From Solirubrobacterales bacterium 70-9 (GTDB taxonomy: Bacteria; Actinomycetota; Thermoleophilia; Solirubrobacterales; 70-9), in contig MKSH01000030.1 in the NCBI GenBank assembly GCA_001898095.1, positions 1-20,736 of the forward strand: 20,736 nt of DNA, in the 5' to 3' direction. Of the stretch, positions 6,914 to 17,719 are shown in pieces. Under the pieces are notes generated by a model. The model worked only from the letters and a program-made list of their open reading frames with translations, was not told the DNA's origin and searched no databases. The position numbers and the translations under genes were made by a program. Each line of letters opens with the position of its first letter. Positions within the stretch are counted from its first letter, which is position 1.

Positions 6914-8038
6914 ATGGCGGGCGGGAGGCAGATCGACTTCGCCGCGGAGGGTCTCCTCGACGACCTCGAGGGCGGCGCGCGCGAGGCGCGACTCGGGCTG
7001 CTGGAGAAGCTGAGCGCGGAAGGGGTCTCGCTGGCGGAACTGCGCGACGCGGTCGCCTCCGGGCACCTCACGGTGCTGCCGGTCGAGCGGGCGATCGCCG
7101 GCGACGGGCCGCGCTATAGCGCCAACGAAATCGCCCGGCAGTCGGGGCTCGGGCTGGAGCTGGCGCTCGCCTTCCGCGCCGCCCTCGGCATTCCCTACGG
7201 CGACGATCTCGACGACAAGGTGGGCACGCAGGCCGACCTGGACGCGGCGGTGCGGACGAAGGCGATCCTCGACGCCGGTTTCCCGGTCGAGGAGATGTTG
7301 CGCAACGCGCGCGTCGTCGGGATGGCCACGGCACGGGTCGCCGAAGCCAACCGCGACCTTGTCGTCCGCAATCTGACCGCCCCCGGCGACAACGAGCGCG
7401 AGCTCGCCGAACGGCTCGTCGGCAGCGTCGAGTTCCTGTTGCCGCTGGGAACCGAGTTCCTCGGCTACGCCTTCCAGGCCAACCTCCTCGAGCAGGTGAA
7501 ACGCGACGTGATCGGCGCCGCCGACCTCGCCTCGGGGGACATCGGCGGGGTGGTCGAGCGGACCGTCTGCTTCGCCGACCTGGTCGAGTTCACCAGCCTC
7601 GGCGAGGAGATCGCGCCGGAGGAATTGGGCGCGGTCGTCGGCCATTTCGAGGAGCTGGCGACCGGCGTCGTCACCGCTCCGATACGCCTCGTGAAGACGA
7701 TCGGCGACGCGGTGATGCTGGTCTCGCCGCAGGCCGAGCCGCTGGTCGAGGTGGCCCTCGACCTGGTCGCCGCGGCGGCCGCGGAAGGGGACCAGTTCCC
7801 GGTCCTCCGCGCCGGCATCGCCACCGGCCCGACCCTTCCCCAGTCGGGCGACTACTACGGCCGCTCGGTCAACCTCGCCAGCCGCATCACCGGCATCGCC
7901 CGCCCCGGCAGCGTCCTCGTCGACTCCCCGACCCGCGAGGCCGCCGGCGAGGACCACTTCGCCTACTCCTTCGCCGGCGAGCGACGTTTGAAGGGCATTG
8001 ACGCCCGGCAGAAGCTGTTTCGGGTTCGGAGGGGCTGA
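6914..8038 (+). CDS. Class III adenylate cyclase with N-terminal regulatory domain (Rv1264-like)
   Basis: The C-terminal half is a complete class III cyclase homology domain. Metal-binding aspartates are D222 (CFADLVEFT) and D265 (GDAVM). The purine-selecting pair is K261 (RLVKTIGD) and D313 (GDYYG), and the transition-state residues are N320 and R324 (VNLASR). All six are present, so a homodimer with two active sites should make cAMP. The N-terminal 200 residues are helical, with no membrane segment. Both architecture and length match mycobacterial Rv1264, in which this region is an autoinhibitory pH-sensing domain, and I infer a similar role. AATAGT at 6902-6907, six bases before the ATG, could be a -10 element for a leaderless transcript. 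The gap to the GGT-like gene is 31 bases, so co-transcription is also possible. Confidence 0.94.
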   Translation: MAGGRQIDFAAEGLLDDLEGGAREARLGLLEKLSAEGVSLAELRDAVASGHLTVLPVERAIAGDGPRYSANEIARQSGLGLELALAFRAALGIPYGDDLDDKVGTQADLDAAVRTKAILDAGFPVEEMLRNARVVGMATARVAEANRDLVVRNLTAPGDNERELAERLVGSVEFLLPLGTEFLGYAFQANLLEQVKRDVIGAADLASGDIGGVVERTVCFADLVEFTSLGEEIAPEELGAVVGHFEELATGVVTAPIRLVKTIGDAVMLVSPQAEPLVEVALDLVAAAAAEGDQFPVLRAGIATGPTLPQSGDYYGRSVNLASRITGIARPGSVLVDSPTREAAGEDHFAYSFAGERRLKGIDARQKLFRVRRG

Positions 8039-8051
8039 AAGGGACGGGAAA

Positions 8052-8113
8052 GGGACGCGGCCCTCTCATAGGCGGTCCGGGCAGGCTGTGACCGCCTATG
8101 AGAGGGCCGTCCC
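8052..8113 (+). repeat. Hairpin A: long inverted repeat with conserved loop
   Basis: The 18-bp arms at 8059-8076 and 8091-8108 pair perfectly and are extended by GGGAC/GTCCC at 8052-8056 and 8109-8113 after a two-base bulge. The loop at 8077-8090 is CCGGGCAGGCTGTG. No U-tract follows, so it is not a classical terminator. Confidence 0.85.
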
Positions 8114-8230
8114 TCGGGGGGAGGGAGAGGGCGCGCGTCCCGTGCGGGTCCCGGGGGAGATCCGCAACGAAGGCGTCCGGAACGTGACGTTTCTTCAGGG
8201 AATACTTCACATCGGCCACGGGTCCCCTCG

Positions 8231-8277
8231 CTCCGTTCGCTGCTTGTACGGGTATGGCGAACAAAGAGCGAACGGAG
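8231..8277. repeat. Hairpin E
   Basis: Perfect 11-bp arms CTCCGTTCGCT (8231-8241) and AGCGAACGGAG (8267-8277) enclose a 25-nt loop. I see no second copy of its loop in this window. Confidence 0.65.
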
Positions 8278-8394
8278 GCCTGCGGCGGCCCGGGATCCCC
8301 CGCCAAGGCGCACGTCCTGGTGACGTCCCCCGCATCTCCCTCGAGGAAGGCAGGAGATCGTCCCGCCCGCGACCCTCCCGTCACCCCCTCCCCC

Positions 8395-8443
8395 GGTGCG
8401 TTCGCAGTTGGCTCCGCTATGCGGTCATTTCTGCGAACGCACC
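8395..8443. repeat. Hairpin F, partner of hairpin G
   Basis: Perfect 13-bp arms GGTGCGTTCGCAG (8395-8407) and CTGCGAACGCACC (8431-8443) enclose a 23-nt loop with a small inner CCGC/GCGG helix. Bases 8419-8440 are the exact reverse complement of 8659-8680 in hairpin G. Confidence 0.75.
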
Positions 8444-8520
8444 GCCCTCGGCGCCCCGGAGGGGTGACGGATCCCCCCGAAAGCGCACGAACCCCGCGCA
8501 CTTCCCCCCGCAAGCCTCGC

Positions 8521-8580
8521 GTCCCGGGCGTCTCGGAGGCGGCCACAGCCTGCCCGGGTCGCCTCCGAGACGCCCGGGAC
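8521..8580 (-). repeat. Hairpin B: long inverted repeat, conserved loop in reverse orientation
   Basis: Perfect 21-bp arms at 8521-8541 and 8560-8580 enclose an 18-nt loop containing CACAGCCTGCCCGG (8544-8557). That is the exact reverse complement of the hairpin A loop. The stem sequence differs from hairpin A but matches hairpin C in island 2. Confidence 0.85.
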
Positions 8581-8656
8581 GGCCGGACCCGGCCGCACTG
8601 CCTCCGAAGTACGCCGTCCCCGGCCGCACCGGCCCCGAATCGCCACCCCACCACCC

Positions 8657-8703
8657 GCGCGTTCGCAGAAATGACCGCATGGCGGCCAGAAGTGCGAACG
8701 CGC
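8657..8703. repeat. Hairpin G, partner of hairpin F
   Basis: Perfect 11-bp arms GCGCGTTCGCA (8657-8667) and TGCGAACGCGC (8693-8703) enclose a 25-nt loop. The loop and left arm (8659-8680) are the reverse complement of hairpin F. It ends 14 bases before the methyltransferase stop codon. Confidence 0.75.
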
Positions 8704-8717
8704 CGGCCGCGGCCGCT

Positions 8718-9638
8718 CTACGCCGGCTTCCGCGCACTGACCAGCAGGTTGTAGAAGAGCTCGGCGGGGAGGTGGGGCTCGAGGAGGCGGGTGTCGACCT
8801 TCTGCAGGGCGATGTAGCTCTGGAAGGCGAAGCGGCGCCAGCGGAGGGGGACGGAGTCGGGCTCGGCGCTCGACTCGACCGTGCGCAGGCCCCAGCCCCA
8901 GGCGTTGGCGAGGAGCTCCTCGCCGCCGACGCGGCGGTCGTCGAAGCCGGCGCGCTCGAGCAGGCGGCGCAGGTCGGCGGGGGCGAAGGCGTGGACGTCG
9001 ACCTCGCCCTCGAGCGAGTGGCCCTCGGACTGGTCGACTTCGGCGACGGCGCGGCCACGGGCGCCGACCAGGCGGCGCCAGACCGGGGCGACCAGCATGC
9101 CGCCGCGCTTCGGCAACGCCGCGAGGCGGTCGCCGTAGCGGGAGGGCTCGCCGGCGAAGACGATCGACCCGCTCGGCCGCAGCACCCGCTTGAACTCGGC
9201 GAAGGCGCGGCCGAGGTCGGGGATGTGGTGGAGGACGGCGTGGCCGAGCACGAGGTCGAAGCTCTCGTCCTCGAACGGCAGCGTCTCCGCCTCGGTGACC
9301 ACGGTGTCGACGCTCTCGAGGCCGAGGGCTTTGGCCGTCGTCGCCAACTGGGCCAGCATCCCCGGCGAGATGTCGGTGGCGGTGAGCTTGCCGATCAGCC
9401 CCAGCTGTACCAGGTTGAGCGAGAAGTAGCCGGTCCCGGAGCCGATCTCGAGCGCCGCGTCGAAGGTCTGGCCGTCGCCCCCGCCGAGCGCCTTGACCAG
9501 CTTCTGGCGCACCTGATCCTGGCCTATATCGCCGAAATCGATCCCCCACTTGGCGTCGTACTCGTGCGCTGCCGCGTCGTGGTAGCGGGTGTTCACGTCC
9601 TTGATGTGCTCCGGCGTCGCGGTCGGTGAGGCTGGCAT
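8718..9638 (-). CDS. Class I SAM-dependent methyltransferase (Methyltransf_11 type)
   Basis: The 306-residue protein has a Rossmann-fold methyltransferase core. Motif I (LEIGSGTGYF) is at residues 63-72, the acidic residue after beta 2 is in TATDISPGM, and the post-I block LPFEDESFDLVLGHAVLHHI is followed by LRPSG. This is the ubiE/COQ5-like layout that usually methylates small molecules or lipids. The C-terminal 120 residues extend beyond the core and hold an Ala/Arg-rich helical part and a conserved-looking end (AFQSYIALQKVD). The substrate cannot be inferred. The ATG at 9638 has no ribosome binding site but has TAGAGT nine bases upstream, which suggests leaderless translation. The gene is divergent from the polysaccharide cluster and shares its 45-bp promoter region. 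Confidence 0.9.
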   Translation of the reverse strand: MPASPTATPEHIKDVNTRYHDAAAHEYDAKWGIDFGDIGQDQVRQKLVKALGGGDGQTFDAALEIGSGTGYFSLNLVQLGLIGKLTATDISPGMLAQLATTAKALGLESVDTVVTEAETLPFEDESFDLVLGHAVLHHIPDLGRAFAEFKRVLRPSGSIVFAGEPSRYGDRLAALPKRGGMLVAPVWRRLVGARGRAVAEVDQSEGHSLEGEVDVHAFAPADLRRLLERAGFDDRRVGGEELLANAWGWGLRTVESSAEPDSVPLRWRRFAFQSYIALQKVDTRLLEPHLPAELFYNLLVSARKPA

Positions 9639-9647
9639 CGGCGCGGG

Positions 9648-9653
9648 ACTCTA
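9648..9653 (-). promoter_or_regulatory. Putative -10 element (leaderless) of the methyltransferase gene
   Basis: TAGAGT on the minus strand lies exactly nine bases before the ATG at 9638. A TTGCAG sequence 19 bases further upstream could be the -35 element. No Shine-Dalgarno sequence is present. Confidence 0.55.
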
Positions 9654-9682
9654 ACGGTGACCGTGTGGTCCGCTGCAATACC

Positions 9683-10462
9683 GTGCGGCGCGTGGCCGAG
9701 GAGATCCTGCAGGCAAACCAGCCCGAGGGGGTGCCGCCGCTGCCCCTGACCGGGGAGCGGACGCTGCCCGACGTGCCCGCCGAGAACTACTGGTTCCGGC
9801 GCCACCTGGCGGTCTACGAGTGGATCGGAGAGCGGATCGCCGGCAAGCGCGTCGTCGACATGGCCTGCGGCGAGGGATACGGGTCCGACCTGCTGGCCGC
9901 GGCGGGCGCGGCGAGCGTGGTCGGCGTCGACGCCAACCCGGAGGCCCACGAGCACGCCCGCCTGCGCTACGTGCGCCCCAACCTGCGCTTCGAGCGCGAC
10001 CTGGTCGAAACCTTCGCCGAGCCCTGCGACGCGGTCACCTTCCTGCAGACGATCGAGCACGTGCAGGACCCGGGCGCGGTGCTCGACCACTTCAAGTCGA
10101 TGCTGGCCGACTCGTCGGCCGGCGCCGCCTACGTCTCGACCCCGAACCTCCTGACGCTCGCCCCCGATGGCGCCGACAAGTCCGACAACCCATGGCACAT
10201 CAAGGAGTACCGGGCGGAGGAGTTCCGCGCCCTCTGCGAGGCGCACTTCGGCCGGGTCGAGCTCTACGGCCTCTTCCACGCCCGCAAGCTGCGCGTCCAC
10301 GCCTGGGCGCTGAAGGCCGGCTGGGACGCCGTCCATCGCCGTCTGGGCCTGACGGAGCCGTTCTACGACCGCTTCACGCCGGCGATCGCCGCCTCCGACT
10401 TCCGCCTCGCGACCGGGGACCTCGACCGCGCGCTCGACTTCCTTGCCGTCTGCCGGCCGTAG
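9683..10462 (+). CDS. SAM-dependent methyltransferase of the alpha-glucan/methylglucose cluster (Rv3030-like)
   Basis: The core has motif I DMACGEGYG near residue 59, GVDANPEA after beta 2, and the LQTIEHVQDP block. The N-terminal signature LTGERTLPDVPAENYWFRRH (residues 22-41) is the hallmark of the actinobacterial group that includes mycobacterial Rv3030. That protein is encoded next to a GH57 enzyme and a GT4 glucosyltransferase and is linked to methylglucose lipopolysaccharide synthesis. The same gene order follows here. I infer that it methylates a sugar or glucan. The start is uncertain: GTG at 9626, 9665, 9683 and 9692 are all in frame and none has a good ribosome binding site. I chose 9683 because it leaves a short lead before the signature. 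The stop overlaps the GH57 start by 20 bp. Confidence 0.88.
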   Translation: MRRVAEEILQANQPEGVPPLPLTGERTLPDVPAENYWFRRHLAVYEWIGERIAGKRVVDMACGEGYGSDLLAAAGAASVVGVDANPEAHEHARLRYVRPNLRFERDLVETFAEPCDAVTFLQTIEHVQDPGAVLDHFKSMLADSSAGAAYVSTPNLLTLAPDGADKSDNPWHIKEYRAEEFRALCEAHFGRVELYGLFHARKLRVHAWALKAGWDAVHRRLGLTEPFYDRFTPAIAASDFRLATGDLDRALDFLAVCRP

Positions 10463-11876
10463 TGCCCCCGGCGCGGGGACGGCGGGCGATCTGGCGATCG
10501 TCCTCCACTCGCACATGCCCTACGTCGAGGGCTTCGGGACCTACCCGTTCGGCGAGGAGTGGCTCTTCGACGCGGTGGTCCGCTCCTACCTGCCGGTGCT
10601 GGAGGTGGCGCGCGACCTGACCCTGACGGTGACCCCGGTGCTCGCCGACCAGCTCGAGGACGCGGGGGCGGCAGCGCGGCTGCGGCGCTTCCTGGTCGAC
10701 TGGCGGATCGGCGCCGCGGAAGCCGACCTTGACGACATCGCACCGGAGGAGCGGCCCGCCTGCGCCGCCGAGCGCGATCGCTACGCGCGGGCGCTGGAGC
10801 TGTTCGACGCGGCGGGCGGTGACCCGCTGGCGCCGTTCCAGCGGGCGGCGGCGGAGGGACGGGTGGCGCTCGCCGCCTCCTCGGCCACCCACGCGCTGCT
10901 GCCGCTGCTCGCCACCGACGCCGGGCTGCGCCTGCAGCTGGACGCCGGCATCCGCTCCCACCGCCGCCGCTTCGGCTGGGACGGCGGGTTCTGGCTGCCC
11001 GAGTGCGCCTACGACCCGGGCCTCGAGTGGGGGCTGGCGCGCGCGGGGGTCGAGTGGTTCTGCGTCGACCAGAGCCGCCACGAGGAGCCGTTCGCCGCGC
11101 TCCGCCCGGTGGCGACCGCGGCGGGACCGGTGGCGCTGCCGATCGACTGGGAGGCGATTGCCTGGCTCTGGGACCTCTCCGGCTACCCCTCCGACCCCGC
11201 CTACGCCCAGTTCGACGGCAAATCGCTGCGCGGGATGCGCCTCTGGAAGATCGGCGGCGGCGCCTACGACCCGGAGGCCGGGGCGGCGGCGGCGCGGCGC
11301 CAGGCGGGCGAGTTCGTCGCCGCGATCGCCGCTCGCCTGCGCGACTACGCCGCGGCGTCCGGCCGGCGCGGCCTGATCACCTTCGCGATCGACACCGAGC
11401 TGCTCGGCCACTGGTGGTCGGAGGGGCCTCTCTGGCTCGCCGCGGTGCTGGAGGGAGCGGCCGCGGCGGGGGTGCGGCTGATGACCGTCCCGCAGGCGCT
11501 CGAAGACCACGAGCCCGAGCGCCGGCCGCTGCGTCGCTCCAGCTGGGGCGAGGACAAGGACTTCTCGACCTGGGACTCGCCGCCGGTCGCCGACCTGGCT
11601 TGGGCGACGCGCCGGCTGGAGCTGCGCCTCCTGCAGGCGGTGCGCGCCGGCCTGCCGGGCGGGCGGGCGGAGCGGGCCGCGCGGGAGCTGCTCGCCGTCC
11701 AGGCCAGCGACTGGGCCTTCCTCGACCGCCGCGGCCAGGCGGGCGATTACGCCTGGCAGCGGTCCACCGATCACTCGCGGGCGCTCTACGAAGCCATAGG
11801 ATGCAACCGTGACACCGATCCGCGCATGCGTTCGCTTGCCCCGGACCTCCGCCTGACGCCCCTCCTGGAACCCTGA
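10443..11876 (+). CDS. GH57-family 1,4-alpha-glucan branching enzyme (DUF1957/Rv3031-like)
   Basis: The 477-residue protein begins with the GH57 first-strand motif AIVLHSHMPYV (near residue 18). The nucleophile Glu is in FWLPECAYDPG (E187), and the acid/base Asp is in FAIDTELLGHWW (D317). The C-terminal helical region has the DWAFLDRRGQAGDYAWQRSTDH block typical of GH57 branching enzymes. Such enzymes cut an alpha-1,4-glucan and re-attach the piece by an alpha-1,6 bond. The TTG start at 10443 overlaps the preceding methyltransferase gene by 20 bp; no other start lies upstream of the first motif. Between a methyltransferase and a GT4 enzyme, it should act on the intracellular glucan that the GT4 enzyme makes. 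A trehalose- or amylase-type GH57 function is less likely. Confidence 0.92.
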   Translation: MPSAGRSAPGAGTAGDLAIVLHSHMPYVEGFGTYPFGEEWLFDAVVRSYLPVLEVARDLTLTVTPVLADQLEDAGAAARLRRFLVDWRIGAAEADLDDIAPEERPACAAERDRYARALELFDAAGGDPLAPFQRAAAEGRVALAASSATHALLPLLATDAGLRLQLDAGIRSHRRRFGWDGGFWLPECAYDPGLEWGLARAGVEWFCVDQSRHEEPFAALRPVATAAGPVALPIDWEAIAWLWDLSGYPSDPAYAQFDGKSLRGMRLWKIGGGAYDPEAGAAAARRQAGEFVAAIAARLRDYAAASGRRGLITFAIDTELLGHWWSEGPLWLAAVLEGAAAAGVRLMTVPQALEDHEPERRPLRRSSWGEDKDFSTWDSPPVADLAWATRRLELRLLQAVRAGLPGGRAERAARELLAVQASDWAFLDRRGQAGDYAWQRSTDHSRALYEAIGCNRDTDPRMRSLAPDLRLTPLLEP

Positions 11877-11897
11877 TCAGCCTCTGACGAGCAGCCC

Positions 11898-13094
11898 ATG
11901 ACCCGTGTCCTGATCCTCTCCTGGGAGTACCCGCCGCTGATCGAGGGCGGCCTCGCGCGCCACGTGCGCAAGCTCTCCGAGGCGCTGGTCGAGCTCGGCG
12001 TCGAGGTCCACGTCCTCACCCGCGGCGGCGAGGAGTCGCCCGCCGAGGAAACCGCGGGCGGGGTGGCGATCCACCGCATCCGCGAGCCCACCCGACCGAC
12101 CGACCTGGGCGAGTTCGTCGCCTGGGTGGAGCGGATGAACTCCGACATGCTGGCGGCCGGGGTGGAGCTCGGGGACCGCTACGAGTTCGACCTCGTGCAC
12201 GGCCACGACTGGCTCGTCGCCAACGCCTGCGACCACCTCTCGCGCCGAATGTCCGCGCCACTCATCACGACGATCCACGCGACCGAGTACGGCCGCCACC
12301 AGGGCTGGGTCAACGACCATCCGCAGTCCTACATCCACGGGGTCGAGCGCTGGATCACGAACCGCTCGCAGCGGGTGATCGCCTGCTCCGCCTACATGCG
12401 CGAACAGATCGCCGACATCTTCGGCGTCGCCGAGGGGCGGATCACGGTGATCCCGAACGGGATCGACCCGCTCGACCTGCCGCAGCCCGACCCGGCCGAG
12501 TTGGCGCGGCTGCGAAAGTCGTTCGCGGCGCCGGAGGAGCGCCTCGTCCTGCTGATCGGCCGGCTCGTCTACGAGAAGGGCTTCCAGTTGGCGCTGGAGG
12601 CGATGCCGAAGGTGATCGAGGCGGCGCCGGGGACGCGCTTCCTGGTCGCCGGCTCCGGCACCCACGAGGAGGAGCTGAAACGTCAGGCCGAGGATCTCGG
12701 GCTGATGGAGCACGGCACCTTCCTCGGCTGGATCGGCGACGACGTGCTGCACACCCTCTACGCGATCGCCGACCTCACCGTGGTGCCCTCGATCTACGAG
12801 CCCTTCGGCCTCGTGGCGCTGGAGGCGATGGCCTCCGGCTGCCCCTGCATCGTCGCCGACACCGGCGGCCTGCGGGAGGTGGTCCCGCACGAGGAAGCCG
12901 GCCTGCGCTTCGCCGCCCGTGACCCCGAGGCGCTCGCCGAGGTGGCGATCCGCGTCCTCTCCGACCCGGAGCTGGAGGCGCGCTTGATCGCCGAAGCCAA
13001 GGAGCACGTCCTGCGCTTCGACTGGGGCGACGTGGCGGTCCAGACCGCCGCCGTCTACGCCGAGCTCGTCGGCGCCAAGCTCGGCCCCGCCTAG
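11898..13094 (+). CDS. GT4-family alpha-glucosyltransferase, glycogen synthase-like (Rv3032-like)
   Basis: This retaining GT-B glycosyltransferase has 398 residues. The N-terminal domain carries WEYPPLIEGGLARHV (residues 9-23), the glycine loop of actinobacterial GlgA/Rv3032-type enzymes, and HGHDWL near residue 98. The C-terminal domain carries NGID, LIGRLVYEKGFQ and the nucleotide-sugar motif E-x7-E (E301 and E309, EPFGLVALE). Rv3032 elongates alpha-1,4-glucans and takes part in methylglucose lipopolysaccharide and glycogen synthesis. Using a nucleotide-glucose donor here is inference by family. The gene starts 21 bases after the GH57 gene in the same direction, so the three genes form an operon. 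The ribosome binding site is weak (GACGAG). The stop is four bases from that of the convergent XRE gene. Confidence 0.93.
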   Translation: MTRVLILSWEYPPLIEGGLARHVRKLSEALVELGVEVHVLTRGGEESPAEETAGGVAIHRIREPTRPTDLGEFVAWVERMNSDMLAAGVELGDRYEFDLVHGHDWLVANACDHLSRRMSAPLITTIHATEYGRHQGWVNDHPQSYIHGVERWITNRSQRVIACSAYMREQIADIFGVAEGRITVIPNGIDPLDLPQPDPAELARLRKSFAAPEERLVLLIGRLVYEKGFQLALEAMPKVIEAAPGTRFLVAGSGTHEEELKRQAEDLGLMEHGTFLGWIGDDVLHTLYAIADLTVVPSIYEPFGLVALEAMASGCPCIVADTGGLREVVPHEEAGLRFAARDPEALAEVAIRVLSDPELEARLIAEAKEHVLRFDWGDVAVQTAAVYAELVGAKLGPA

Positions 13095-13098
13095 GTTC

Positions 13099-13398
13099 CT
13101 ACGACAGCGGCGGGCTGCCGAAGGTGAAGGTCCCGTACTTCGCTTCGCCGGGGGTCCAGTGGATGCCGTCGACCAGCTCTTCGGGGCGGATCGCCATCGC
13201 CCCGGCCAGCCGCACCAGGGTGTCGATCCGGGCCACCCGCTCGCCTTTCTCCAGCTTGCCGATCTCGGTCCGATGCAGCGACGCGCGTTCGCCGAGCTCT
13301 TCCTGGGAGAGGCCGGCGAGCTGTCGGCAGCGCCGCAGGTTCTGACCGAAGCGCAGCGCGACGCCCTCCGAGATCACCTTTCGCTCTTCCCGCGGCAC
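13099..13398 (-). CDS. XRE-family helix-turn-helix transcriptional regulator
   Basis: The protein has a Cro/CI-type HTH: FGQNLRRCRQLAGLSQEELGERASLHRTE is followed by IGKLEKGERVARIDTLVRLAGAM, covering all helices of the fold. A short C-terminal tail (IHWTPGEAKYGTFTF) may form a small sheet. Length is 99 residues from GTG at 13398. Other starts are ATG at 13449 (116 residues) and GTG at 13377. I prefer 13398 because TTATCT, a possible -10, lies six bases upstream, as in leaderless genes, and because the extra residues from 13449 look unstructured. GTG 13377 has a GGAAGA-like ribosome binding site and is the main rival. A 10-bp palindrome covers the start and suggests self-repression. The gene is divergent from the VapB-like gene. 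Confidence 0.85.
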   Translation of the reverse strand: MPREERKVISEGVALRFGQNLRRCRQLAGLSQEELGERASLHRTEIGKLEKGERVARIDTLVRLAGAMAIRPEELVDGIHWTPGEAKYGTFTFGSPPLS

Positions 13399-13407
13399 GC
13401 GGGAAGA
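13385..13407. promoter_or_regulatory. Perfect palindrome over the XRE start codon, likely autoregulatory operator
   Basis: Arms TCTTCCCGCG (13385-13394) and CGCGGGAAGA (13398-13407) are perfect 10-bp inverted repeats with a GCA spacer. The site overlaps the preferred GTG start, the possible -10 TTATCT, and the GGAAGA that would serve the GTG at 13377. It fits a repressor operator, or an RNA hairpin hiding the start. Confidence 0.5.
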
Positions 13408-13454
13408 TAACGTCAGGTGGGAACCCGGGTGGAAGCGTATTGTCTGCATCGTGG

Positions 13455-13460
13455 TAGCGT
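13455..13460 (+). promoter_or_regulatory. Putative -10 element (leaderless) of the 58-codon gene
   Basis: TAGCGT lies exactly nine bases before the ATG at 13470. No Shine-Dalgarno sequence sits at a normal distance. No clear -35 element is visible. Confidence 0.45.
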
Positions 13461-13469
13461 TTATGCAGG

Positions 13470-13646
13470 ATGGATCGGACGTTTGACACTCCCGACGAGC
13501 GGGTCGAGGAGCTGCTTGTCGAGATGATCCGATTGACCGGTGAGGACAAGGTCACGGCACTGTGTAAGGCGCTGGAAGAAAGGCTGGAGCGGCTGCGCGA
13601 CGTCGGCCAGCGGCTGCTCGGCGTCGATCCGGAAACCCGACGATGA
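13470..13646 (+). CDS. Small VapB-like antitoxin or regulator (58 residues)
   Basis: An ATG at 13470 opens a 58-codon frame ending in TGA at 13644-13646. The sequence contains LLVEMIRLTGEDKVTALCKA and then an Arg/Leu/Glu-rich helix (LEERLERLRDVGQRLL). The pattern of a LTGE-type turn followed by a TALxxALEERLER helix resembles the short VapB/Rv0623-type antitoxins that pair with PIN-domain toxins. No toxin gene follows: the next 41 bases are non-coding and the next gene is unrelated. It could be an orphan antitoxin, a free regulator, or a partner of the divergent XRE gene. Support for a real gene is the well-placed TAGCGT -10 element and coding-like amino-acid composition. Confidence 0.6.
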   Translation: MDRTFDTPDERVEELLVEMIRLTGEDKVTALCKALEERLERLRDVGQRLLGVDPETRR

Positions 13647-13656
13647 TCGTTAACGA
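13647..13656. promoter_or_regulatory. Short palindrome upstream of the membrane-anchored protein gene
   Basis: TCGTTAACGA is a perfect 10-bp palindrome directly after the stop of the small gene and about 20 bases before the TAACCT -10 candidate. It sits where a -35 region or operator would be, but it is short enough to be chance. Confidence 0.25.
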
Positions 13657-13675
13657 GGACTGCGCACGAGGTCGC

Positions 13676-13681
13676 TAACCT
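13676..13681 (+). promoter_or_regulatory. Putative -10 element of the membrane-anchored protein gene
   Basis: TAACCT lies six bases before the GTG at 13688, a distance expected for a leaderless or nearly leaderless transcript. It supports this GTG as the start. Confidence 0.4.
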
Positions 13682-13687
13682 GCGCGC

Positions 13688-14311
13688 GTGCCCTTCGCGA
13701 AGTCCAAGGCCCGCCGCAGCCCGATGCAGCGGTTGACCGATCAGCGCCGCAGCCTGGCCCTCGCCGGCCTGGCGGCAGGGGCGGTCTTCAGCGCCGCGAT
13801 CCTGCGCCGCAGGCGGCGCGGGGGAGAGGCCGAGTTCGGGCAGTCCCACGCGGAGGCCGCCGAGACCCCGACGGAGCCGACCGGGTCGGGGCCGCCGCCC
13901 GCCGCCGAGGTGCCGCCGGCCGCGAGCGAGTCGGACGCCTTCGCCGCCGCTGAAGCTGCGACCGCGACCCAGGCCGACCACGAAGCCCCGGAGACGACCG
14001 CGCTGAACGCGACCACGGAGCCGGTGTCAGCCGAGGCCGCCTCGACCAGCATCTCCGACCCCGCCACCGGCGAACTGAGCGCCGAGGAGGCCTCGATCCT
14101 CGCCGTCCTCGCCCAGAGCGGCCGCAACGACGACGACCGCACCGCGATCGCCGTCGCCGCCTCGCTTGAACGCGAGACCGCCGACGTCGCCGGCGTGCTG
14201 CGCAAACTGGGCGCCGAAGGCGTCGTCGAGGGTGAGCTCTACACCGCCTCCGGCGAGAAGATCTGGGCGGTCACCGAGCGCGGGGTCCGCCGGCTCGGCG
14301 CCCAGCACTGA
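13688..14311 (+). CDS. Membrane-anchored protein with a possible C-terminal winged helix; function unknown
   Basis: The 207-residue protein has three parts. Residues 1-21 are basic (FAKSKARRS). Residues 22-40 are hydrophobic (SLALAGLAAGAVFSAAIL) and are followed at once by an RRRRR run, so the anchor likely leaves the rest in the cytoplasm. Residues 45-125 are Ala/Glu/Pro/Thr-rich and probably disordered. The last 80 residues (ILAVLAQSGRNDD, then LERETADVAGVLRKLGAEGVVEG and AVTERGVRRLG) alternate helices and strands like a winged-helix DNA-binding domain of the MarR/ArsR kind. I know no named family with this exact build. The function is open; a membrane-tethered DNA-binding protein is the reading I find most natural. 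It converges on the ABC permease gene with 54 bases between them. Confidence 0.72.
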   Translation: MPFAKSKARRSPMQRLTDQRRSLALAGLAAGAVFSAAILRRRRRGGEAEFGQSHAEAAETPTEPTGSGPPPAAEVPPAASESDAFAAAEAATATQADHEAPETTALNATTEPVSAEAASTSISDPATGELSAEEASILAVLAQSGRNDDDRTAIAVAASLERETADVAGVLRKLGAEGVVEGELYTASGEKIWAVTERGVRRLGAQH

Positions 14312-14365
14312 GGCGCCCGCCCGCCTCGGACCGCCTGCCGCCCGCGCCAGGCCCGCCGCCCTGCC

Positions 14366-15139
14366 TCAGACCGCCCGCTGGTAGGTCCTGAACGCCCGCA
14401 CGGCGAAGACGCCGCAGAGGCAGAGGAAGGCGACCAGGAGGCCGGTCTTGCCCGCGATCGCGCCCCAGGACGGGTCCGGCGTGACCGCGCTGCGCCCGGC
14501 TTCGACAGCCCAGTTCAGCGGGTTGTACTTGACCAGCGACTGCATCCAGTCCGGCATCAGGTCCTTCTGCATGAAGGTCACCGAGATGAAGGAGAGCGGC
14601 AGGAGCAGGAACTGGACCGTCGCGATCAGCGTCTCCTCGCGCCGCACCAGCAGCGCCAGGCCGATCGAGAGGCAGCCGAAGGCGGACCCGAGCAGCACCG
14701 AGACGAGGATCAGGACGGCGACCCCGGGGACGCTGTTGGCGAACGTCGCGCCGACGATCAGCGCCAGGACGACGATGATCAGCGACTGGATCGCGGTGGT
14801 CAGCGCGCTGGAGGCGAGCCGGCCGGAGATCAGCGAGCTGCGCCGCACCGGGCTGACCAGGAAGCGGTCGATGACGCCGCGGTTGATGTCCTCGATCACC
14901 GGCATGCCGGTCCAGCCGGCGCCGAAGAAGGCGGTCATCACGACCACGCCGGGGGCGAGGAACTGGATGTAGTTGGTCGAGCCGAAGCCGGGGATGTCGG
15001 TCACCGACTTGAACAGGGCGCCGAAGAGCAGCAGCCAGATCACCGGCTGGACGAGCGAGACGGCGATCCACCAGGGCTGGCGCCAGAGCGCCATCAGGTG
15101 GCGGACGGTCATGTGCTGGGTGTCGCGCAGGGCCTTCAT
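14366..15139 (-). CDS. ABC-2 type membrane permease (DrrB-like)
   Basis: The 257-residue permease has about six membrane segments, near residues 23-43, 58-78, 106-132, 137-160, 168-188 and 230-250. The middle holds the ABC-2 pattern VIEDINRGVIDRFLVSPVRRSS, a cytoplasmic coupling helix typical of DrrB-type drug or lipid exporters, and YNPLNWAVEAGR lies before the last segment. With the adjacent ATPase it forms an exporter, presumably with two subunits of each. The ATG at 15139 shares a base with the stop of the ATPase gene (TGATG), so translation is coupled. The frame stays open upstream, but that part is a shadow of the ATPase gene. Confidence 0.93.
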   Translation of the reverse strand: MKALRDTQHMTVRHLMALWRQPWWIAVSLVQPVIWLLLFGALFKSVTDIPGFGSTNYIQFLAPGVVVMTAFFGAGWTGMPVIEDINRGVIDRFLVSPVRRSSLISGRLASSALTTAIQSLIIVVLALIVGATFANSVPGVAVLILVSVLLGSAFGCLSIGLALLVRREETLIATVQFLLLPLSFISVTFMQKDLMPDWMQSLVKYNPLNWAVEAGRSAVTPDPSWGAIAGKTGLLVAFLCLCGVFAVRAFRTYQRAV

Positions 15140-16140
15140 CAGTGGTGCACTCCTTTCCGGTGGGCGGGTCGCTCTCGGTCGTTCGCTTCGGCGGCGCCGA
15201 AGGTGCGGCCGGCGAAGCGCAGGTAGACGTCGTCGAGGGAGGGACGGGCGACGGTGACCGAGCCGACCTCGACCGCGGCGCCTTCGAGCGCCGCCAGCAC
15301 GGCCGGGACGGTGCGGGCGCCGTCGGCGGCGCGGGCGTGGACGACGCGCTCGTCGACCAGCACCTCGTCGACCCCGTCGATCCGCTCCAGCGCCGCCCGC
15401 ACCGCGGCCTCGTCGGCGTCGGCGTCGAGCTCGACGTGGATCGCGTCGCCGTTCAGCCCCCGCTTCAGCTCGTCGGGGGAGCCCTCGGCGACGACCCGAC
15501 CCTTGTCGACGATCGCCAGGTGCGCCGCCAGCTGGTCGGCCTCCTCGAGGTAGTGGGTGGTGAGCAGCACGGTCAGCCCCTCGCCCGCGAGCCGCCCGAT
15601 CTCCTCCCACATCTCCGCCCGCACCTCGGGGTCGAGGCCGGTGGTCGGCTCGTCGAGGAAGAGCACCTGCGGTTTGTGGACCAGCGCCTGGGCGACGTCG
15701 AGCCGCCGCCGCATCCCGCCCGAGTACTCGCGCACCAGGCGGTCGCCGGCGTCGGCGAGCCCGAACTGGCCGAGCAGCTCGTCGATCCGTGACTCGAGGC
15801 CCTTGCCGCCCATGCCGAAGACCTGTCCCTGGAGGCGCAGGTTCTCCCGCCCGGTCGCCTCCTGGTCGAGCCCGCCGGCCTGCGAGACGACGCCGATCGA
15901 CTCGCGCACCCGCGCCGGTTCCTCCAACACGCTGAAGCCCGCCACCCGAGCCGAGCCGCCGTCGGGGTGGGCGAGGGTGGTGAGGATCTTCACCGTCGTC
16001 GACTTGCCCGCCCCGTTCGGCCCGAGCAGCCCGAAGACGCTGCCCGCCGGAACCGCGAAGGTGAGGCCGTCGAGCGCCTGCACGTCCTCGCCGTATGCCT
16101 TCTTCAGATCGATCGCCTCGATCGCGTTCGCGCCGTTCAC
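15139..16140 (-). CDS. ABC transporter ATP-binding protein (DrrA-like drug/lipid exporter)
   Basis: All ATPase motifs are intact: Walker A GPNGAGKST at residues 40-48, Q87, signature YSGGM at 139-143, Walker B LFLDE with D163/E164, and the switch His196 in TTHYLEEAD. The wording EPTTGLDPEVR and a C-terminal extension of about 100 residues, ending in RPSLDDVYLRFAGRTF, are features of the DrrA family, which exports anthracyclines and other hydrophobic compounds. The GTG start at 16140 has GAGGAGG five bases upstream. It is the first gene of a two-gene operon divergent from a MarR regulator, which should repress it through the operator at 16177-16200. The substrate is unknown. Confidence 0.95.
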   Translation of the reverse strand: MNGANAIEAIDLKKAYGEDVQALDGLTFAVPAGSVFGLLGPNGAGKSTTVKILTTLAHPDGGSARVAGFSVLEEPARVRESIGVVSQAGGLDQEATGRENLRLQGQVFGMGGKGLESRIDELLGQFGLADAGDRLVREYSGGMRRRLDVAQALVHKPQVLFLDEPTTGLDPEVRAEMWEEIGRLAGEGLTVLLTTHYLEEADQLAAHLAIVDKGRVVAEGSPDELKRGLNGDAIHVELDADADEAAVRAALERIDGVDEVLVDERVVHARAADGARTVPAVLAALEGAAVEVGSVTVARPSLDDVYLRFAGRTFGAAEANDRERPAHRKGVHH

Positions 16141-16145
16141 CCAGC

Positions 16146-16152
16146 CCTCCTC
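16146..16152 (-). promoter_or_regulatory. Strong ribosome binding site of the ABC ATPase gene
   Basis: GAGGAGG on the minus strand is five bases before the GTG at 16140 and decides that start. It contrasts with several neighbouring genes that lack any such site. Confidence 0.75.
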
Positions 16153-16176
16153 GGGGTAGTAGAATTCTCTCGATTC

Positions 16177-16200
16177 TCAAGTATCTTGAAAATCAAGATA
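16177..16200. promoter_or_regulatory. MarR-type operator with overlapping inverted repeats
   Basis: TATCTTGA-AAA-TCAAGATA (16182-16200) is a perfect 8-bp inverted repeat with a three-base spacer. An overlapping TCAAG-TAT-CTTGA (16177-16189) shares its left half, so there are three half-sites in a row. The site is AT-rich in GC-rich DNA and lies between the divergent exporter and MarR genes, six bases before the marR ATG. Binding there would block both promoters. Confidence 0.8.
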
Positions 16201-16205
16201 ACACG

Positions 16206-16688
16206 ATGCCGACCCGCATGAAGAAAAAGACGAAGCGCGAGTTGGTCCATGAGCTGGTGGCGGCGACCCGGGCGAGCCAGGTGGCGACCGACAAAATGGA
16301 CGACGCCGGCAGCCGGGCGCTGGGGGTGAACCGGACCGACGGACGCTGTCTCGACGTGATCCAGCAGACCGGCCGGATCAGCGCGGGGGAGCTGGCCGAG
16401 CGGGCCGGTCTGACCACCGGTTCGGTGACCGCGGTTGTCGATCGACTGGAGGCGAAGGGCTTCGTGCGCCGGGTGGCCGATCCGGAGGACCGCCGCAAGG
16501 TCCTGCTCGAGGTCACCGACGAGATGGAACACCGCGCCCTCGAACTCTGGGGCCCGCTCGCCCACCGCGGGATTCCACAGCTCGAGAAGCTCTCGGTGAG
16601 CGAGATCGAACTGCTGATCCGCTACATGCGCTTCGCCACCGAGCTGAACGAGACCCGCGCGGCGGAGATCCGGGCCGAACTGGAGTAG
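16206..16688 (+). CDS. MarR-family transcriptional regulator
   Basis: The 160-residue protein has the MarR winged-helix layout: a long first helix (LVHELVAATRASQVATDKM), GRCLDVIQQTGRISAGELAERAGLT, the recognition helix TTGSVTAVVDRLEAKGFV, and the wing RRVADPEDRRKVLLEVT. The end is helical and should dimerise. MarR proteins repress efflux genes and release DNA when they bind phenolic or other hydrophobic ligands, or on oxidation. No cysteine-based sensor is obvious; only one Cys is seen, near residue 50. I start it at ATG 16206; ATG 16218 is possible, and upstream in-frame sequence runs through the operator and is not coding. It is divergent from the ABC exporter, which is its likely target. 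Confidence 0.93.
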   Translation: MPTRMKKKTKRELVHELVAATRASQVATDKMDDAGSRALGVNRTDGRCLDVIQQTGRISAGELAERAGLTTGSVTAVVDRLEAKGFVRRVADPEDRRKVLLEVTDEMEHRALELWGPLAHRGIPQLEKLSVSEIELLIRYMRFATELNETRAAEIRAELE

Positions 16689-16740
16689 GGGGAGGGCCGG
16701 GGACGGCGTAGTTCGCGGCCCGGTCGATTGGGGACGGTCG

Positions 16741-16800
16741 CGTCCCGGGCGTCTCGCGGCGGTCCTGGCAGGCTGTGACCGCCCCGAGACGCCCAGGACG
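16741..16800 (+). repeat. Hairpin C: long inverted repeat with conserved loop
   Basis: The 23-base arms (16741-16763 and 16778-16800) pair with two mismatches. The loop CCTGGCAGGCTGTG (16764-16777) differs from the hairpin A loop at one base. The left arm shares GTCCCGGGCGTCTCG with hairpin B. Confidence 0.82.
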
Positions 16801-16980
16801 CGAGGCTTCCGGGGGGAAGTGCGCGGGGTCGGTGCGCTTTGCGGGGGAGACGTCACGCCTCCGCAACGCCGACCCGGGTGCGTTGGGCAGGGGCCTGTCA
16901 CGGAAGGCTCACGTCTCCTCGCCCTCGTCACGGATCTCCGCCGGGACCCGCACGGGACCCGCGCCCTCGCACCTCTCCCC

Positions 16981-17044
16981 GGGACCCGGCCCTCTCGTAG
17001 GCGGTCACAGCCTGCCCGGACCGCCTACGAGAGGGCCGCGTCCC
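16981..17044 (-). repeat. Hairpin D: long inverted repeat, conserved loop in reverse orientation
   Basis: Perfect 18-bp arms (16988-17005 and 17020-17037) are extended by GGGAC/GTCCC (16981-16985 and 17040-17044) around a two-by-two internal loop. The loop CACAGCCTGCCCGG (17006-17019) is the exact reverse complement of loop A. The stem differs from A by one base pair, changed on both sides (A-T to G-C). Confidence 0.85.
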
Positions 17045-17065
17045 TCGCCGTCCCTCGAGCGCGCC

Positions 17066-17719
17066 CTACGCCGCAGGCGGCGGGCGCAGCGTGCCGGGCG
17101 CCTCCGGGTCCGGTTCGACCGGGCGATCCCAGCGCAGCTCGGTCGGCGCCTCTCGCATGCGCAGGATCCGCGCCGGGATGCCGCCGACGACGGCGTTCGC
17201 GGGGACGTCCTTGGTCACCACCGAGTTGGTGCCGATGATCGAGTTGTCGCCGACCCGGACGCCGCGCAGGATGCAGGCGCCGTAGCCGATCCAGACGTTG
17301 GAGCCGACCTCGACGTCGCGCTTGTAGATGCCCTGCTGGCGGATCGGACGCTCGATCTCGACCACGCCGTGATCGAAGTCGATGAACATCGCTCGGTCGG
17401 CGATCACGCACTGCTCGCCGATCCGCACGTGCTGGTAGGCGGAGATCGTGCACTCCTGGCCGAGCACCGACTTGGCGCCGATCTCGACCAGCCCCTCGTG
17501 GCAGCGGATCTTGGTCCGGTCGCCGATCCAGACGAAGCGGCCGAAATCGACCCGCCCGCGCGGTGAGATCTCGATTTCCAGGCCGCGGCCGAAGAAGACG
17601 AAGCCGTCGGTGCGCCAGCGGCGGCCCGCCGAGGTCAGCAGCCGACGCCAGGACCAGCGCCAGGCGAGCCGCCCGTAGCGCCAGTTCAGCATCTTGTGTC
17701 GGGAGAGGAAGCGGAGCAC
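17066..17719 (-). CDS. Hexapeptide-repeat (left-handed beta-helix) acyltransferase
   Basis: The 217-residue protein has imperfect hexapeptide turns from about residue 48 to 190, including VEIGAKSVLGQECTI, VRIGEQCVIADRAMF and VEVGSNVWIGYGACILRGVRVGDNSIIG. It ends with the family's closing block VVTKDVPANAVVGGIPARIL. FIDFDHGVVEIERPIRQQG in the middle carries the catalytic His of WbbJ/WcaF/maltose-type O-acetyltransferases. Such trimeric enzymes transfer an acetyl or similar group from acyl-CoA to a sugar, often on surface polysaccharide. The basic, Trp-rich N-terminus (residues 1-38) is longer than the core requires. The GTG start at 17719 has TAAAGT nine bases upstream and no ribosome binding site; ATG in codon 10 is an alternative. 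It is divergent from the MeaB gene. Confidence 0.92.
   Translation of the reverse strand: MLRFLSRHKMLNWRYGRLAWRWSWRRLLTSAGRRWRTDGFVFFGRGLEIEISPRGRVDFGRFVWIGDRTKIRCHEGLVEIGAKSVLGQECTISAYQHVRIGEQCVIADRAMFIDFDHGVVEIERPIRQQGIYKRDVEVGSNVWIGYGACILRGVRVGDNSIIGTNSVVTKDVPANAVVGGIPARILRMREAPTELRWDRPVEPDPEAPGTLRPPPAA

Follow-up and report, generated by a model that had tools for sequence, protein, structure and literature searches.

The window analysed here is the whole 20,736-nt stretch of contig MKSH01000030.1 (GCA_001898095.1) from Solirubrobacterales bacterium 70-9, a draft genome of 4.2 Mb that is 84% complete and is henceforth called G000. Two gene-free islands in the window are inverse copies of one two-hairpin element, and what is new here is that the internal palindromes of most paired copies of this element match palindromes at the starts of genes whose products carry AbiEi_4 and DUF559 domains.

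Two inverse copies of one element in the window

The first-pass annotation had described the islands as inverted copies of one composite hairpin element lying between convergent genes, and both points hold. The longest pairs between island 1 and island 2 among the matches listed are four inverse blocks: 8436-8536 with 16784-16884 (101 nt, 84%), 8051-8124 with 16972-17045 (74 nt, 91%), 8116-8175 with 16920-16979 (60 nt, 83%) and 8580-8625 with 16695-16740 (46 nt, 72%). Island 1 separates an adenylate cyclase-like gene from a methyltransferase gene, and island 2 a MarR gene from a hexapeptide transferase gene. Each island is bounded by two long hairpins in opposite orientations, as had been noted by comparison with bacterial interspersed mosaic elements (BIMEs): hairpins A and D are of one type (R), and hairpins B and C of another (L). 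When folded as single-stranded DNA, hairpins A-D reach z scores of -6.8 to -8.6 on both strands, and 0 of 200 shuffles folded as well. The extra internal stretch reported for island 1 does hold two hairpins. One agrees over 48 nt with the palindrome at the start of an AbiEi_4-DUF559 gene of G000 (locus L365), and the arms of the other recur in two further gene palindromes. The features are as follows, with scores from covariance model R1.

8039..8053 (-), island 1, outer array beyond the R hairpin: ~10-bp units of CGTCCCTT type that begin immediately downstream of the adenylate cyclase-like stop codon; found in the outer flanks of 58 R hairpins
8054..8114 (-), hairpin A of island 1, R-type: minus-strand loop CACAGCCTGCC; 68.8 bits; DNA fold z -7.6 / -8.6
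8231..8278 (+), internal palindrome 1 of island 1: CTCCGTTCGCT...TATGGC...AGCGAACGGAGG; copy of the L365 start-codon palindrome
8394..8444 (+), internal palindrome 2 of island 1: GGTGCGTTCGCA...TGCGAACGCACC; arms, not centre, match the start palindromes of L374 (genome G009) and L366 (G000)
8520..8580 (+), hairpin B of island 1, L-type: 86.1 bits
8581..8626 (-), island 1, outer array beyond the L hairpin: ~38-bp units with GGGGACGGCG; found in the outer flanks of 41 L-side hairpins
8659..8706 (+), extra copy of internal palindrome 2, beyond the L hairpin: repeat match 85%; arm matches to gene palindromes of 10-12 nt only
16695..16741 (+), island 2, outer array beyond the L hairpin: from the inter-island repeat match and the L outer flanks
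16742..16800 (-), hairpin C of island 2, L-type: minus-strand CACAGCC loop; 77.3 bits
16982..17042 (+), hairpin D of island 2, R-type: 79.5 bits
17043..17061 (+), island 2, outer array beyond the R hairpin: CGTCCCTCGCCGTCCCTC; from the R outer flanks
6914-8038 (+), adenylate cyclase-like gene, neighbour of island 1, convergent with the methyltransferase gene
8718-9638 (-), methyltransferase gene, neighbour of island 1, convergent with the adenylate cyclase-like gene
16206-16688 (+), MarR gene, neighbour of island 2, convergent with the hexapeptide transferase gene
17066-17719 (-), hexapeptide transferase gene, neighbour of island 2, convergent with the MarR gene

A dispersed family with a fixed inverted layout

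We demonstrate that the islands belong to a family with many copies, a fixed inverted L/R layout, covarying stems around near-constant loops, a preference for gene 3' ends, and sites of which few are shared between species and some are empty in relatives. In G000, copies were collected by BLAST with the islands and by a loop-plus-palindrome scan of 60 sampled stretches and the window; 101 hairpin matches were found and 99 kept, two that lacked the family loop being dropped. These form 63 element loci, made up of 36 pairs and 27 hairpins that are single at the scan threshold, so that the suggestion of a dispersed family is borne out here and in five other species of the genus. All 36 pairs consist of one L and one R hairpin in opposite orientation, as do 17/17 pairs in a second species (G009). 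The G000 pairs comprise short copies resembling island 2 (n=20, 241-398 bp between hairpin centres) and long copies resembling island 1 (n=16, 445-503 bp, 13 of them at 464-466 bp). Over 168 loci, some of which overlap, 76/76 hairpin neighbours no more than 800 bp apart are inverted.

The hairpin model has 61 positions, 21 modelled pairs and a 12-nt loop, with stems of 20-26 bp, and the loop CACAGCCTGCC is nearly invariant across the family. Among 72 hairpins from six species, changes on both sides of the stem occur in 13 of the 21 pairs, 95.6% of stem cells pair, and the covariation score was reached by 0 of 500 shuffles. R stems fall into three main sequence forms, that of G000, that of G009 and one common to the remaining carriers; such species-specific types suggest that copies have been evened out within a genome or arose in recent bursts. 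On the strand with the CACAGCC loop, G-T mismatches exceed A-C mismatches (L, 34 vs 7; R, 43 vs 4; distinct hairpins), with one position supplying 41 of the 77 G-T cells and the excess being L 17 vs 7 and R 19 vs 4 without it. Since L and R are inverted and the asymmetry lies on the CACAGCC strand, each hairpin would act on its own strand. We considered and set aside loop-loop kissing of L and R in one transcript, which is possible yet an automatic result of inverted copies, and over which the asymmetry favours own-strand action. Four L hairpins (C131, C171, C112, C172) have the same rewritten loop, AAGCGGGCAGCCTGCCCGGG, which looks as if template switching had produced it and it had then been passed from element to element.

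The outer flanks carry tandem arrays in variable number, with ~38-bp direct repeats containing GGGGACGGCG beyond L and ~10-bp CGTCCCTT units beyond R. These units resemble, without being identical to, the GGGGWSAS motif that a passage of PMC3733652 reports for terminal inverted repeats of tyrosine transposases. A short hairpin repeat, CCGGGCGCCAGCTTCCCGGCGCCC, and variants of it often follow the R array (e.g. C121:1397, C186:4955, C42:11527, C7:1941).

A covariance-model search, as the first-pass annotation had proposed, divided the 12 genomes of the genus (G000-G011) evenly. At least 132-150 hairpin-model matches were obtained in each of G000, G003, G006, G007, G008 and G009 and none in G001, G002, G004, G005, G010 and G011; the best 150 candidates were scored per genome, so the counts are lower bounds, and they may include both strands of one hairpin. 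Order-wide, 7/232 genomes match, the seventh with a single weak match, so that the element marks one group of soil actinobacteria. Draft sizes are 3.8-4.7 Mb for carriers vs 2.4-3.4 Mb for non-carriers, and the carriers are also closer to G000 in a first neighbouring protein (85-89% identity vs 78-82% for the others; G011 has no orthologue) and in a second (73-86% vs 61-72%; G001 and G011 have no full orthologue). Many of the G009 hairpins are found no more than ~350 bp from the start of a contig (e.g. C43, C50, C62, C70, C107, C117); the repeats seem to interrupt draft assembly, so the counts probably understate the real copy numbers. The hairpin-bearing named records among the matches listed are metagenome-assembled Solirubrobacterales/Actinomycetota (SZAS-14, SZAS-10, SZAS-9, RYN_247), while 13 matches listed from other organisms had no family hairpin on inspection. 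No Rfam family matched the window at the gathering threshold, in keeping with the earlier remark that the element belongs to no recognised family, and island 1 had no match in plasmid and phage collections. A pattern match in a viral contig (L211) lacked the family hairpin and was taken as chance. Our literature search found nothing on repetitive extragenic palindromic sequences (REPs) with convergent genes in Actinobacteria, nor on hairpin repeats of Solirubrobacterales.

Mapping the copies relative to gene orientation revealed a preference for 3' ends and convergent gaps. Among the 58 G000 loci with both neighbours (5/63 lie at contig edges and lack one), 30 are convergent, 21 tandem and 7 divergent, compared with 39, 176 and 58 of 273 background adjacent pairs; the convergent excess has a Fisher p of 5e-9 against all background pairs and of 5e-4 against gaps >200 bp only. 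The convergent setting noted for both islands is thus real for these two, and family-wide it is a tendency (30/58 vs 39/273) rather than a rule. Genes were called with our own codon-usage script, and therefore divergent and large-gap loci may hold missed genes. Of the gene ends that neighbour paired elements, 49/71 are 3' ends, and the median gap from element to gene is 74 bp there vs 214.5 bp at 5' ends. A bias of REPs to gene 3' ends and convergent gaps is described in part of PMC3733652.

The sites of the two islands are empty in several relatives, which supports the proposal that the element is possibly mobile. Between protein alignment ends, the gap at the island-1 site is 680 bp in G000 vs ~36 bp in G003, 121 bp in G009, 44 bp in G010 and 50 bp in G004, and the gap at the island-2 site is 39 bp in G009, 33 bp in G006 and 75 bp in G005. 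Other relatives have something else at the island-1 site: a 255-bp gap with a different palindrome in G002, a different reading frame followed by an L hairpin in G006, an AbiEi_4-DUF559 gene in G007 and G008, and in G005 the contig terminates within such a gene. No family loop was found at the island-2 site in G007 (301 bp) and G008 (513 bp), and the MarR gene was not found in sampled stretches of G001, G002, G003, G004 and G010. Conversely, an element of G009 occupies a gap between two genes that in G000 measures 31 bp. In partial samples with some overlapping loci, 65 G000 and 64 G009 element clusters have a flanking orthologue in common in 4 cluster pairs, in one of which the elements lie at opposite ends of the common gene; over all species compared, such shared-flank pairs number 5.

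AbiEi_4-DUF559 genes and the palindromes inside the elements

The first-pass annotation had suggested looking for a transposase of the REP-associated tyrosine transposase (RAYT) or IS200 type as the partner of the element. No such gene came to light: PF01797 (Y1, RAYT-type transposase) matched 0/12 genus genomes, including carriers that are 94% and 96% complete, while the same search was positive in 5/14 control genomes. An identity as an IS200/IS605-derived palindrome-associated transposable element (PATE) was rejected on the same 0/12 result. The genes at the island-1 site of G007 and G008 carry AbiEi_4 (PF13338) and DUF559 (PF04480), and in G007 the ATG lies within the loop of a long hairpin, whereas the G008 counterpart has a poor hairpin. 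Members of this family, fragments included, number 6-18 matches per genome in 12/12 genus genomes, and 7,719 of 7,995 scored candidates match at E <= 1e-10. In a protein model, residues 5-198 are AbiEi-like and residues 204-305 Vsr/I-Bth0305I-like, so that the product resembles a predicted fusion of AbiEi to a Vsr/homing-endonuclease domain. A sequence search of solved structures with the protein profile gave no match at E <= 0.1, and we found no paper joining DUF559 and AbiEi.

Palindromes are frequent at the starts of these genes. We scored hairpins as pairs minus twice mismatches in sets of 30 and 40 AbiEi_4-DUF559 loci, which are part of all paralogues (4 more G008 loci and 1 more G000 locus are uncounted). 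In the first set (90-nt window), 15/30 genes scored >=12 vs 0/351 other genes, and 17/30 scored >=10 vs 3/351. Among the second set of 40 loci, examined in a 130-nt window and without a control, 17 scored >=12 and 21 scored >=10. In other genera of the order, 9/30 genes scored >=10 vs 3/150 letter shuffles (110-nt window). A G-rich, Shine-Dalgarno-like run stands just 5' of the palindrome in 25 of the 32 genes that score >=12, and the palindrome's central 15 nt contain ATG in 21 of them, or 26 if GTG and TTG are included, both counts being without a control. Stem sequences of different paralogues are mostly unrelated. At L304, L309, L310, L365, L366 and others the start codon lies at the centre of a long palindrome with a G-rich run before it, an arrangement also present in some other genera. 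From their sequences, the start palindromes look like devices of start-codon control. When reading frames of any kind were screened for a hairpin at the start, the best 60 of 95 rows held, besides the AbiEi_4-DUF559 gene, frames that on visual inspection we put down to chance passage through the repeats themselves.

We compared 38 of these gene palindromes (score >=10) with the element bodies. At E <= 1e-3, an internal match was present in 30/36 paired G000 elements and in 15/17 of those in G009, and at E <= 1e-5 in 27/36 of the G000 elements. Reversed queries matched 0/36 and 0/17 elements, respectively, coding segments matched 0/36, and only 5/117 other intergenic gaps >60 bp contained a gene-palindrome match. 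Of the two palindromes in island 1, the first matches a gene palindrome in full and the second in part: palindrome 1 and the L365 palindrome (gene at G000:C256) are 91.7% identical across 48 nt (E between 2e-15 and 3e-14, by database size), and palindrome 2 has arm matches of 12-15 nt to L374 and L366 (best E 2e-5), sister long copies matching L366 over 43 nt (E 1e-6 to 5e-9). Some queries hit mainly their own genome: all 14/14 element-locus hits of L365 are in G000, as are 6/8, 7/7 and 2/2 of those of the G000 palindromes L309, L322 and L333, and the L310 palindrome of G006 recurs in G006 at E 2e-15. Several dispersed families have CTG or AGG in place of ATG, and the L365 family keeps the ATG. 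The palindrome of GTTGATGGGCCGAAAA type, the gene copies of which have a loop without ATG, has 77 forward matches in G000, 49 in G003, 99 in G006, 61 in G007, 32 in G008 and 29 in G009; of the six non-carriers, only G004 has a hit, a single reverse one with a mismatch, and the reversed pattern has no match in any genome. Because internal palindromes match AbiEi_4-DUF559 start palindromes, a partnership of repeat and nuclease is suggested that lies outside the known, transposase-linked kind.

Interpretation and rival explanations

We regard it as about evenly balanced that the islands represent a giant, clade-specific, REPIN-like mosaic element (REPINs being inverted doublets of REPs) whose partner in trans is probably the AbiEi_4-DUF559 nuclease family and not a RAYT. 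Sequence comparison ties the element to these genes, and from that tie a mobilising role of the nucleases is inferred. In outline, two inverted hairpins (L and R, ~60 nt, with a 12-nt loop around CACAGCCTGCC) would enclose a body usually furnished with smaller palindromes. Each AbiEi_4-DUF559 protein may recognise the palindrome of its own gene, by analogy with AbiEi antitoxins, which bind inverted repeats in their own promoter; a passage of PMC7319586 states that binding to inverted repeats represses the operon that encodes them. The predicted Vsr/homing-endonuclease-like domain would nick or cut such palindromes, and repair or replication would then copy the element into new intergenic sites and even out copies within a genome, with insertions persisting mostly behind gene ends. 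A broader proposal, which we put forward tentatively as possible though doubtful, is that these proteins are RAYT-independent REP-associated nucleases, the start palindrome of each paralogue being its own recognition site and the homing-endonuclease-like domain driving the copying of intergenic palindromes, L-M-R elements included. How REP-like repeats spread without RAYTs is a question to which we found no answer in the REP literature; dispersed palindromes together with a single gene family of AbiEi/homing-endonuclease-like fold make the question of protein and palindrome testable, and the proposal, if true, would give a function to the DUF559 family, which is common yet little studied.

The element shares with REPINs, BIMEs and their RAYTs the inverted hairpin doublet as unit, compensatory stem changes, many copies, an extragenic position near gene 3' ends, and dispersed palindromes that match those at one specific gene family. 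It is REPIN-like as parts of PMC3116915 describe REPINs, yet it fails two defining tests, the short tagged REP and the RAYT. Whereas a REP is 20-40 nt with an unpaired GTAG, the 61-position model has no GTAG at its edge, and the hairpins (~61 nt, 20-26 bp stems, 12-nt loop) stand ~240-600 bp apart between centres with flanking tandem arrays; the matching genes encode AbiEi_4-DUF559 proteins. It is very unlikely, in our estimate, that this is a true REPIN/RAYT system whose Y1 transposase was lost or is missing from the draft genomes: passages of PMC3733652 and PMC3116915 describe similar inverted doublets, copy numbers and intergenic locations downstream of genes, and the former mentions CGTC-type REPs without a dedicated transposase, but PF01797 is absent from 12/12 genomes, the 94% and 96% complete carriers among them, with controls working, and the hairpins exceed 20-40 bp and lack the tag. 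Those CGTC-tagged REPs likewise have CGTC(CC) beside the stems, form head-to-head doublets, stand in convergent or tandem gene contexts and are not known to have a dedicated transposase; as set out in that part of PMC3733652 they differ in an 8-9 bp stem, a 4-5 nt loop and an unpaired CGTC, compared with 21 pairs, a 12-nt loop and a CGTC partly in the stem here. The RIME of rhizobia and the BOX of pneumococcus are likewise modular palindromic intergenic repeats, and the element resembles them by description of this modular build; we know of no match between either and gene start palindromes. AbiEi antitoxins and Vsr/I-Bth0305I-type homing endonucleases correspond to the two parts of the fold predicted for the AbiEi_4-DUF559 protein, in which the domains are fused, and to our knowledge neither solved family has a tie to interspersed palindromes.

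Three other explanations were weighed. Copy length varies rather little within either subfamily (16 long copies, 13 at 464-466 bp; 20 short, 241-398 bp), and the ends partly agree when inverted (GGGGACGG / CGTCCC); both features would suit a miniature inverted-repeat transposable element (MITE) moved by a DDE or other transposase, with the internal palindromes as unrelated cargo. The ends, however, are variable tandem arrays rather than fixed terminal repeats, no target duplication could be defined, and internal palindromes are far more frequent in paired copies (30/36) than in other intergenic gaps (5/117), so that we hold a MITE to be unlikely. Selection for a host function, as two-way terminators, mRNA 3'-end stabilisers or chromosome-structuring sites, would agree with the 3' bias (49/71 ends; 74 vs 214.5 bp) and the compensatory stem changes; given that elements are missing from 6/12 genus species, few sites are common to the species compared, tandem (21) and divergent (7) gaps are also occupied and no T-tract follows the stems, we think it quite improbable. 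A purely regulatory account, in which the palindromes at the genes serve as operators for autoregulation or as start-codon hairpins, and the dispersed copies are captured operators or decoys without a role in mobility, draws on the self-repression of AbiEi antitoxins via inverted repeats (a passage of PMC7319586), on the Shine-Dalgarno-like run (25/32) and central ATG (21/32), both without a control, and on the change of ATG to CTG or AGG in several dispersed families, though not in that of L365. It leaves unexplained why one palindrome has tens to ~100 copies per carrier and none in most non-carriers, and why palindromes lie inside a mobile-looking element; its chance, we believe, is a small one, on a par with that of a MITE.

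Several observations weigh against a nuclease-partnered mosaic element. Its support is comparative, and no transposition, cleavage or binding has been seen. AbiEi_4-DUF559 genes are present also in the 6 element-free genus genomes; being found in carriers and non-carriers alike, the gene family alone is therefore insufficient. Internal matches are lacking in 6/36 paired elements, including island 2, and once the 7 gene palindromes that have no Shine-Dalgarno-like run (and mostly no ATG either) are set aside, elements with a match at 1e-3 drop from 30/36 to 26/36. L320, L392 and other palindromes have hits mainly in other species, in a sample where G000 and G009 sequence is far over-represented, and some of the gene palindromes that match elements belong to paralogues from a different species. 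No L...R copy enclosing a gene was seen, and in the 168 loci no inverted neighbours lie 800-6000 bp apart. Element ends are ragged, variable arrays at which no target duplication is definable, the empty sites being too diverged. Of the G000 flanking genes with an orthologue in sampled G009 loci, 4/6 flank an element there vs 4/29 other genes, and a few element sites may thus be old; together with the few shared sites, this suggests that some sites are probably old and shared, and many not. Finally, the L/R hairpin model gave only four hits in 100 AbiEi_4-DUF559 loci at E <= 0.1, just behind L308 and L320 and weakly near the starts of L322 and L307, which therefore leaves L and R without a clear gene partner.

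The hairpins at L308:2405-2465 and L320:2379-2439 are of L/R type, have a CCGTCCCT tail and stand directly behind AbiEi_4-DUF559 genes, and the two sites look like one orthologous locus in G003 and G006.

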